From a bacterium (GTDB lineage: Bacteria; Auribacterota; UBA3054; JAPLST01), in contig JAOACZ010000185.1 in NCBI GenBank assembly GCA_026417575.1, positions 1 to 40,477 on the forward strand: a stretch of 40,477 bases of DNA, read 5' to 3'. Below are positions 7,094 to 32,680 of the stretch, one piece after another. Below the pieces are notes generated by a model that ran no database searches, was not told the origin of the DNA, and saw only the letters and a program-made list of their open reading frames with translations. Made by a program: the position numbers and the translations under genes. Positions within the stretch are counted from its first letter, which is position 1. Each line of letters begins with the position of its first letter.

Positions 7094-7454
7094 CTCCCTG
7101 AGTTCTCGCTGCACTGCCTCAGCGGCAGTTGGGTTTGGGTCTGAGAAGCCTACGAAAACGGCGGCTCGCGCATCCACCCGGTTCGCGGCCTCACGGATTC
7201 TCGGAGGCACATGCCCTACCCGCACACAAACGACACAAAATGCCTTTTGCAAACAGCAGGAAATGTCATTTGTACGGCCCTGCCGCCTGGCAATTGGAGT
7301 GAGTGACGCTGAAAGGCCGCCCTGCGCGACTGCAGCGTTACGCCCCCTTCACGCTGTGTGAGAACATGGTCCCCAAGCGGCGATCACGCGGGCCCCATGT
7401 GAGGCGCTTGACGAGCGCGTCAGAGCACCGGTAAACACGCGAACAGGCACGGGG

Positions 7455-30406: not shown

Positions 30407-30524
30407 GCGACTCGCGTACCAGCGCTTCGCCTTTCTCTCCTACTCGCGCGTGGAGACGCGAAACGGCCCATGATCTCGCTTGAACGCACGAAAACAGTTC
30501 TTCTGAGAAGGCGCCCCCTCATCA

Positions 30525-30566
30525 ACATTTTTTGCTGTCTGCAGTCGACATTTTTTGTCGTCTGAA
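30525..30566 (+). repeat. Structured intergenic repeat, copy A
   Basis: TTTGCTG followed by CAGTCGACA, loop TTTTT, TGTCGTCTG (hairpin 30542-30564; 8 of 9 pairs, one T-T mismatch), then AAT. It aligns without gaps to copy B at 32225-32268. One stem pair differs as a compensating change (G-C here, A-T there). Confidence 0.6.
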
Positions 30567-31034
30567 TGCTTCTAACGGCGCGTGAGAGCCGCCACGCTCG
30601 ATTAAATCAGCACGCCAATCTCGAAACCGCGTGCGCTTGAATTGCGTACATTACTCGTGAACACCTGAGGCGCTCGTTCTCTCACAGAGCGCACCCCCCG
30701 CATTGCCTGGGAAAAGAAAAACCTCCTCTGCTGTGCTTCATGTCTCGAAAACCCGCAGCCTCTAAACTTGTACCAAACAACACACGTGCGACTAGCTCCA
30801 GTTACCCTGCAGGAACCCATTCACGTCTGTGTTTTGACGTTTGTCCGCACACTCTTTTGCTTGTGCTGTTCTTATCTTTTCAGAATCGTGCCATTTCTCA
30901 AATTAGTATGCGCGCTGATAACGTCGCTTTTATTTCTTTCTTTGCGTCACCGAGCCGCGTCAACACAACCGTCCTCCCGGTTCTCGATTCTCTCATACCC
31001 CGGGTCTTTTTAGTCTAACATCTGACGCGATCAG

Positions 31035-31063
31035 TTGCATTTCATGATCCATTGTGCTATGTT
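31035..31063 (+). promoter_or_regulatory. Candidate promoter of the TM2 gene
   Basis: TTGCAT (31035-31040), 17-bp spacer, TATGTT (31058-31063), with TGC before the -10. The -35 is identical to that of lptD. Confidence 0.5.
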
Positions 31064-31314
31064 AGACGCGCCTCAAGAGCGCCAATGGAGTCGTCCATGA
31101 AGCTCAAGGCATACAGAGTGGGCAGGTCGCGCGGCAGTCGCGCAGGCTGTGTCAGTGTTTTCACAACAGCGACGCTTATTCCTTCTTCATCCTCGCTTTT
31201 CTTCAGCGTTTTAAGGCCGGTAATTATGTATTTGAGCGTGCTCTTCACTCCCGCACCATGGCAACGCGCTGCCCACGGTCGGGCTACTTAACTTAACCAC
31301 ACAAGGAGGAACGT

Positions 31315-31632
31315 ATGGCTGCTCTCTCACCAATCGAACTGGCCAGCATGACCGAGGGGCTTACGGAACAACAGAAGATGTTGTTTCACATCCAGTACAA
31401 CGCGGCAAAGAAGGATAGCTCGATCGCAATCATTCTCGCGGTCTTGCTCGGTTGGTTTGGCATTGACCGTTTCTATGTGGGCGATATCGGCCTTGGGTTA
31501 CTTAAGTTATTTACAGGCGGTCTGTGCGGCATCATGTGGCTGATTGATATCTTCCTGATTAGTGAAAAAGTGGCCGCATATAACCGCACCAAAGCCCAGG
31601 AAATTGTTCAAATGCTCAAGATGAGTGGCTAA
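31315..31632 (+). CDS. TM2 domain-containing membrane protein
   Basis: The 105-residue protein has a hydrophilic N-terminus (1-38) and then the TM2 module: helix one (IAIILAVLLGWFGI), the conserved DRFYVG turn, LGLLKLFTGG, and helix two (GIMWLIDIFLI). TM2 proteins occur across bacteria, and their roles are mostly undefined. An AGGAGG ribosome site lies 6 bases before the ATG. It stands alone with its own promoter and terminator, and both flanking gaps carry a copy of the structured repeat. Confidence 0.92.
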   Translation: MAALSPIELASMTEGLTEQQKMLFHIQYNAAKKDSSIAIILAVLLGWFGIDRFYVGDIGLGLLKLFTGGLCGIMWLIDIFLISEKVAAYNRTKAQEIVQMLKMSG

Positions 31633-31704
31633 TGCCAGGAGCAGAGCGCTGCGCGTCCTTAGGCACGCCCAGCACCCCACGCTGTCACCGTACTACAGGG
31701 TGCT

Positions 31705-31739
31705 GCCACACACCCGGGCGTCACGTGTGGCTCTTTTTT
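31705..31739 (+). terminator. Intrinsic terminator downstream of the TM2 gene
   Basis: A 7-bp stem GCCACAC/GTGTGGC (31705-31711 with 31725-31731) is followed at once by TCTTTTTT. It lies 73 bp after the TM2 stop. Confidence 0.8.
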
Positions 31740-32224
31740 GCGTGCAACGTGGTAACGTGCATAAATTGCCCTCCGACCGACTGCTGATGTGCCCGTCAAC
31801 GCGCCAAAATTGAGGTATGCGAAATTGTTTTCCTGTTCAGCCGCACACGCCTTCGCGAGTATCTCCAGTAATGCGCAGATGAAGGCTGTCCTGAGCTGCA
31901 ATTGCCCCACGAGGTCACTTTTCATTGTTCGCCCGCTCCAAATGACCGCTTGCCACGGCTGCACTTATGCGTGATGTGTCTGCGCAAAAGTAGTTGCCAA
32001 GTCGCGCTGCCTGCCTTGGATCGAGATGGGAGTGCGCAAAGTTGCGAGTGGACCTGATGCGTGTGAACGCCCTTGAGTGGGAGGCACAGGACGCGACGCC
32101 CACAATCGCGCGTGAAAATAAGCCGCATTCAATTCACGTGAATGGGACTTTCTGGTGGGCATGGGCCTCGTGCCCGCGAGGTACACGTGACGATTGGTCG
32201 CCGAGGTCCTCCGCGACTCAATCG

Positions 32225-32268
32225 ACAATGTTTGCTGATTGCAAACGACAATTTATGTCGTTTGAATT
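32225..32268 (+). repeat. Structured intergenic repeat, copy B
   Basis: TTTGC-tgatt-GCAAA (32231-32245) overlaps a second, perfect 9-bp hairpin CAAACGACA-ATTTA-TGTCGTTTG (32242-32264), followed by AAT. The two hairpins share bases and so could be mutually exclusive. Copy A is at 30525-30566. Confidence 0.65.
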
Positions 32269-32599
32269 TGCGTGGAGTGTGTTCGCGTGAAGATACAGTT
32301 GTCGAGTTAGGCGATCCTCCATATAAAAAAAACGCACGACAACCGGCCACCGACGCCGGCCCGTGTCAGCAAAAAAGCCAGGTGGGAAGCTTAGTGGCCG
32401 GGTGAGCTCCTTTTTCAGAGAGTCGGATACGTTCGTGGACGTGGTAATGCTGGGAGTTTTTTTGCGCATCCAAAGTTAATGAGTGGTCCCGTGGGGCTCA
32501 CGCATGTAGAGGTAGTTAAGATGGAGCGATCTGAAAACAGTAACGGGAAGCATAGTTGTGTGCGGCATACGCAGGCAACGCGCTGGTATGTCAGACGCT

Positions 32600-32628
32600 T
32601 TGACAACCCAAAGGGTAAATGGTATAAT
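32600..32628 (+). promoter_or_regulatory. Perfect-consensus hppA promoter
   Basis: TTGACA (32600-32605), 17-bp spacer, TATAAT (32623-32628), with TGG as an extended -10. Every hexamer base matches consensus. Start would be near 32635, leaving a leader of about 74 nt before hppA. Confidence 0.85.
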
Positions 32629-32650
32629 CCAGACCGTTTATAGAAGAGGA

Positions 32651-32669
32651 GGCGTTGTGTCACAACGCC
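32651..32669. promoter_or_regulatory. 19-bp palindrome in the hppA leader
   Basis: GGCGTTGTG-T-CACAACGCC is a perfect 9+1+9 inverted repeat about 16 nt after the predicted transcription start. It could be a repressor site blocking the strong promoter, or an RNA hairpin. It overlaps the mini-ORF at 32657-32680. Confidence 0.6.
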
Positions 32670-32680
32670 CATCGAGCTGA
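32657..32680 (+). CDS. Possible 7-codon leader ORF upstream of hppA
   Basis: GTG TCA CAA CGC CCA TCG AGC TGA, four bases after an AGAGGAGG-type ribosome site (32645-32652). The site has no other start codon to serve. Its reading would disrupt the palindrome hairpin. Too short to judge by codons. Confidence 0.3.
   Translation: MSQRPSS

Follow-up and report, generated by a model that had tools for sequence, protein, structure and literature searches.

A lineage-restricted 23-bp palindrome dispersed through Auribacterota genomes as a candidate site for a dimeric DNA-binding protein

One contig (JAOACZ010000185.1) of an Auribacterota MAG, which consists of 239 unordered contigs, carries two similar intergenic sequences, copies A and B, on either side of a TM2-domain gene. 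Positions 1 to 40,477 of this contig were analyzed and are called the window below. What are these two sequences? The initial annotation recognized no known family, in agreement with our Rfam search of the window, which gave no match, and it proposed a REP-like element, a small RNA, or a protein site. Without gaps, A and B shared 33 of 42 bases (79%) over the coordinates of that annotation, where the likeness had been judged by eye at about 70 to 75%, and stems were present in both. The best ungapped 42-bp match in 200 Markov-shuffled intergenic pairs, on either strand, was 29 (mean, 25.3), so the likeness exceeds that of shuffled intergenic DNA. The TM2-domain gene (PF05154, 63 bits; positions 31315 to 31632) stands alone, with a long intergenic region of about 1 kb on either side, and each of these regions holds one doublet. 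A special role for this gene was not borne out, with copies being placed regardless of gene orientation.

Repeat finding identified an internal repeat with a period of 23 bp inside both sequences. Each is therefore a doublet, in which a single 23-bp palindrome occurs twice, head to tail. Copy A spans 30519 to 30564 (plus strand) with units TCATCAACATTTTTTGCTGTCTG and CAGTCGACATTTTTTGTCGTCTG, the second of which is within 3 mismatches of the consensus. Copy B spans 32219 to 32264 (plus strand) with units CAATCGACAATGTTTGCTGATTG and CAAACGACAATTTATGTCGTTTG, both within 2 mismatches. The initial annotation had placed the two correctly, but its limits start inside the element, the left part of which is the first 23-bp unit. 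Over the full 46-bp doublets, 34 of 46 bases were the same. Two copies had been flagged in the window, and a third, more degenerate doublet had been missed. This copy C (7227 to 7272, minus strand) lies in the divergent intergenic region before lptD, and its two units, 23 bp apart, have 4 and 5 mismatches. A covariance model, R1, was built from 46 doublets of this genome and used at a threshold of E ≤ 0.01. It matched A at 30515 to 30568 (53.6 bits, E 1.6e-18), B at 32215 to 32268 (64.9 bits, E 7.9e-23), and C at 7223 to 7276 on the minus strand (53.8 bits, E 1.4e-18), scores that are not independent since all three copies were in the training set.

The consensus of the unit is CAATCGACA-N5-TGTCGATTG, i.e., two 9-bp half-sites (CAAWCRACA) that face each other across exactly five A/T-rich bases. 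This spacing is sharply defined. At 5 bp, we counted 59 sites in this genome (G000), where no other spacing from 0 to 15 had more than 7, and 19 sites in the genome G002, where no other spacing had more than 5; the peak was common to all four sampled genomes (G000, G001, G002, and G009). The distance between units is equally strict in this genome, where a second unit lay at exactly 23 bp for 56 neighbor positions and no other spacing between 18 and 30 occurred more than once. Conservation within the unit is uneven in both lineages, at 0.97 to 0.99 for C8 and G16 and just 0.64 to 0.76 for G6, which is often A. The half-sites by themselves were not strikingly overrepresented, and a DNA-uptake-sequence model was ruled out for lack of massive half-site enrichment.

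We then asked how far the motif extends beyond the window. A 37-bp pattern drawn from A and B, at up to 3 mismatches, found A and B alone in this genome and two places in other genomes of the order. Strand hits of the single-unit pattern, for which palindromes count on both strands, numbered 40 in this genome, 60 in the family's other genome, and 73 to 140 in the sister genus g3, compared to 0 or 1 for the reversed pattern. Among 44 genomes of the phylum searched at up to 2 mismatches, six had the motif in number (27 to 69 sites) and one other had a single hit. The initial annotation had suggested looking for further copies with a covariance model, and these were found, about 100 per genome, here and in five relatives. 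R1 matched 139 times in this genome and 68 to 115 times in the five relatives, which belong to two families; these counts exceed the numbers of places because some places matched on both strands, and the matches in relatives are independent of the training set. In the order's other nine genomes, there was no match in eight and a single match in one. Site density in our samples was 26 to 103 per Mb. The motif is thus a real, lineage-restricted, dispersed family. A relative of the neighboring protease was present on a contig of a Lake Pavin MAG, where the motif match was weak (17 bits). A literature search with the half-site letters returned, among the matches listed, none on bacterial repeats.

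The initial annotation had invoked selection on RNA or cruciform structure, citing an A-T pair in B that is a G-C pair in A as a compensating change. This pair does exist, but the one next to it is disrupted in A, and such changes show no family-wide excess. The arms of B (CAAACGACA/TGTCGTTTG) pair perfectly over 9 bp around a loop of 5 nucleotides, and those of A (CAGTCGACA/TGTCGTCTG) have one T-T mismatch. Pairing was tested on a gap-free alignment of the 46 doublets with a two-hairpin structure, for which the 3' letters were dealt anew in the shuffles. Paired cells amounted to 76.6%, compared to 77.1 ± 0.7% after shuffling; all five measures were at or under the shuffled means, and outer-arm pairing was likewise no better than in shuffles. 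The further copies of the motif do not bring the covarying stems that the initial annotation had named as support for an RNA or REP-like family. In G001, which has the least diverged copy set, position 4 of the arms was TT in 11, mixed T/A in 12, and AA in 8 cases; independence would give 9.3, 15.4, and 6.3. Each arm thus varies independently of the other, and the symmetry of the palindrome lies in the consensus and does not reflect maintained pairing. Together, the absence of covariation and the independence of the arms point to duplex DNA rather than to RNA or a hairpin.

A structured RNA (a terminator, untranslated-region element, small RNA, or switch) is therefore extremely unlikely. Each of the three window copies does fold better than shuffles (z of −2.4 to −3.5), but the RNA shapes predicted for A, B, and C are not the same, no terminator was called at A and B, gene orientation showed no preference, and all three reading frames are used in g3. 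The alternative TTTGC/GCAAA hairpin exists in B only, which confines the proposed switch to that copy. We dropped an RNA structure or switch on the basis of covariation and inconsistent folds, and with neither covariation nor an Rfam match, the motif does not belong to a structured RNA family. Of the options in the initial annotation, a REP-like element and a protein site were right in kind.

Placement was examined over a 600-kb sample of this genome, with up to 4 mismatches allowed. The sample includes contigs picked for holding hits, and its genes were called by a simple codon-usage score. Only 1 of 46 unit sites lay in a predicted gene, compared to 37 expected (P = 1.5e-31), and a second unit was present at 42 of the 46. 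Site-bearing intergenic regions were tandem, divergent, and convergent in a ratio of 12:6:5, i.e., in background proportions (43:24:14 kb). The sites could be operators of an ordinary transcription factor that acts on neighboring genes. Palindromic half-site geometry is typical of dimeric repressors, and copies A and C do sit in divergent intergenic regions. However, the majority of sites in this genome are well over 100 nucleotides from both flanking genes, region type shows no preference, and in g3 most sampled sites lie within genes (28 of 38 in G002 and G009, unlike this genome). We consider operators of this kind very unlikely.

The gene copies of g3 bear on how the motif arises. At up to 3 mismatches, the genes of G002 held 11 sites, compared to 0.7 after synonymous codon shuffling, and those of G009 held 6, compared to 0.3. 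Because codon-shuffled genes do not yield the copies, a protein-level origin was ruled out. The motif is read in all three frames in g3 genes (QSTKFVDC, SIDKFCRL, and NRQNLSIE). There was no gap across the site relative to solved-structure homologs of LeuRS, ThiH, a 2Fe-2S subunit, and a GH2 mannosidase. Orthologs without the motif in sister genomes were mostly of equal length with no indel, e.g., NSKKTSLD in G005 and G007 compared to NHQKMSIE in G002 and G009, or LKDNIGRLQHHPS compared to ITDNICRLQSHPS. The exceptions were a glycosyltransferase (L073) and an oxidoreductase (L016), for which the G009 homolog has an insertion of 15 to 17 residues, and a few distant comparisons showed small gaps. 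In LeuRS and QueE, the site was present in all four g3 genomes with 2 to 4 mismatches. With most comparable ortholog pairs free of indels, simple transposition into genes was rejected. Other short repeats also seem to sit inside g3 open reading frames (L141 in G009, L016 in G007, and L062 in G002), among them a 15-residue insertion that contains repeated ACTCCCATAGCTCCCAT-like codons, and GCGAATGCCGG-type hairpins.

Codon usage hints at constraint on the gene copies. In peptide-sharing orthologs, 70 of 82 codons were identical, compared to 52 expected after adjustment for amino acid and family, a count reached by none of 5,000 random window sets but inflated because sites were chosen for an intact query copy, which shields one branch from change. 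Under a rough correction (the square root of the background of 0.63), the expectation is 0.80 compared to 0.85 observed, which is not significant. DNA-level constraint judged from shared codons is thus suggestive only.

Mostly indel-free gene copies also separate the motif from palindromes known to enter genes. Rickettsia palindromic elements (RPEs) in protein genes are in-frame insertions of 105 to 146 bp (PMC2229807). Like the motif, RPEs are palindromes within conserved protein-coding genes and are open in all frames, but here 23 to 46 bp are mostly replaced in place. No RPE-type in-frame insertion was found at the site relative to homologs of LeuRS, ThiH, the 2Fe-2S subunit, or the GH2 mannosidase, nor relative to most orthologs without the motif, with L073 and L016 again as the exceptions.

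The main rival to a protein site is a REP/BIME-like repeat, selfish or neutral, in which small palindromic doublets are spread through intergenic DNA by a trans-acting transposase and have no present function. REPs tagged with GTAG are 20- to 50-nucleotide palindromes preceded by that tetranucleotide (PMC8266576), and REP/BIME/REPIN systems with their RAYT (TnpA_REP) resemble the motif in being short palindromes with about 100 or more extragenic copies, often doublets, in mosaic association with other palindromes (PMC8266576, PMC3116915). The nearly exclusive extragenic placement in this genome fits such an element, as do the larger repeat with inverted ends around copy B, the clustering of copies within intergenic regions, and the occurrence of Y1 transposases in the order. 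What weighs against a binding site is that this genome's copies are degenerate and that several often share one intergenic region, since a neutral repeat would look the same. However, GTAG was absent from the 4 bases on either side of the 46 own-genome doublets, and Y1 genes do not track the motif. Y1 (Pfam PF01797) was not found in G002, an absence that is not certain because MAGs are incomplete, yet this genome has 140 strand hits, whereas G004 has seven Y1 genes and no hits. The single Y1 gene of the genome studied here has no unit within 1.5 kb. Without the tag and without an association with RAYT (Y1), the motif is not a GTAG-tagged REP, and mobilization by Y1/RAYT was dropped because the distribution of PF01797 across the order does not follow the motif. 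Recognition of a single-strand hairpin would also predict covariation, which is absent here. In G005, one locus (L095) has a palindromic unit at 1272 to 1294, about 130 to 150 nucleotides upstream of an IS200-like tnpA (1412 to 1864), and at L088, which is similar, a weak unit lies about 130 nucleotides upstream of another such gene. The alignment between the two upstream regions is poor, shows indels, and does not preserve the unit, and these loci were treated as separate.

REPs tagged with CGTC come closer in size. They have a CGTC/TGTC tag and a CCA tail of about 3 nucleotides flanking a stem of 8 to 9 bp with a 4- to 5-nucleotide loop, form dimers, can be intragenic, and have no dedicated transposase; their families include Rickettsia RPE-4/RPE-6 and neisserial dRS3, and gene copies have been described as insertions (PMC3733652). 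The motif matches them in stem (9 bp), loop (5 nucleotides), dimers, the lack of a dedicated transposase, and a mostly intergenic placement with some gene copies. It differs in that neither a CGTC (or TGTC/CCTC) tag nor a CCA tail occurs consistently outside the stem in the flank columns of the 46 doublets, CGTC being seen in one copy only, and in that its symmetric units adjoin directly, with a period of 23 bp. Gene copies that are mostly indel-free are also hard to explain by insertion, for a 23-bp insertion would shift the frame. We regard a REP-like repeat as doubtful, albeit a serious contender. As it stands, the motif is a dispersed palindromic DNA repeat or site that lacks the defining features of the named families.

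Appearance in place, without indels, in genes and between them and in every frame, is also what a mutational or repair by-product would show. The cyanobacterial HIP1 is likewise a lineage-restricted palindrome overrepresented genome-wide, apparently without transposition, and its buildup has been proposed to be incidental to mismatch repair (PMC4390886). By analogy, methylation-linked repair, template switching, or another biased process could build up the palindrome with no selection for binding. However, HIP1 is 8 bp and far more frequent than this 23-bp motif at 26 to 103 sites per Mb, half-sites alone show no striking excess, and biased repair does not readily account for a motif of 23 bp that has both a fixed spacer and doublets at a 23-bp distance. 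This explanation is unlikely.

In-place appearance, fixed half-site spacing, arm-independent change, and orientation-blind placement are together best explained by a site in duplex DNA that a dimeric protein would bind. We propose, at somewhat less than even confidence, that A and B are lineage-specific recognition palindromes bound by a putative dimeric DNA-binding protein. Such a protein would read each half-site in a sequence-specific manner. So many scattered sites (about 100) make a chromosome-wide role likelier than control of individual genes, and this role might be in chromosome organization, segregation, or division control. A bolder version is possible but rather doubtful: the palindrome would be written in place into conserved genes, with codons exchanged but no indels, and would afterward be maintained as DNA sequence for a putative dedicated protein that needs about 100 sites per chromosome. 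The Noc sites of Bacillus subtilis number about 70 and are palindromic (PMC4331003). Noc, E. coli SlmA, and matS sites are all palindromic protein sites in tens of copies across the chromosome, and the palindromic geometry and half-site independence seen here would be compatible with a dimeric-protein site of the Noc, SlmA, or MatP type. Those sites are shorter (12 to 16 bp), and their binding proteins are known. To our knowledge, doublets at a fixed 23 bp are not a feature of any of them.

Mobile elements that insert are the usual explanation for small palindromic repeats in bacterial genomes. The motif described here takes different forms in two sister genera: in one it is an extragenic doublet, and in the other a mostly indel-free substitution within genes. 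A role as a protein site would point to a novel genome-wide DNA-binding system in a little-studied phylum; otherwise, some mechanism must spread 23 bp of sequence without inserting it. In both cases, the family provides a testable example in which selfish spread and selection on DNA could be told apart.

Copy B lies in the middle of a larger element. Positions 32130 to 32321 (minus strand) are a degenerate copy of a composite repeat of about 168 bp, with ends GGAGGGGCRCCGGCC and GGCCGGTGCCCCTCC, and match the L043 element at 70% identity across 198 bp (E 7e-15). The composite recurs in this genome, complete or in part, at L096 (1501 to 1668) and in 50 further matches, and part of the motif copy number here comes from duplication within it. 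MITEs have terminal inverted repeats and a target-site duplication and are 70 to 300 bp long. The composite around B has inverted ends, but the surroundings of copy A held no composite repeat at the threshold used. The inverted ends GGAGGGGCRCCGGCC/GGCCGGTGCCCCTCC also occur alone as short dispersed hairpins. Farther downstream, a perfect (12 of 12) sigma-70-type promoter is predicted at 32600 to 32628 on the plus strand (TTGACA-17-TATAAT, with TG before the second hexamer), about 80 nucleotides before an H+-pyrophosphatase gene and followed by a GC-rich hairpin at 32650 to 32670.
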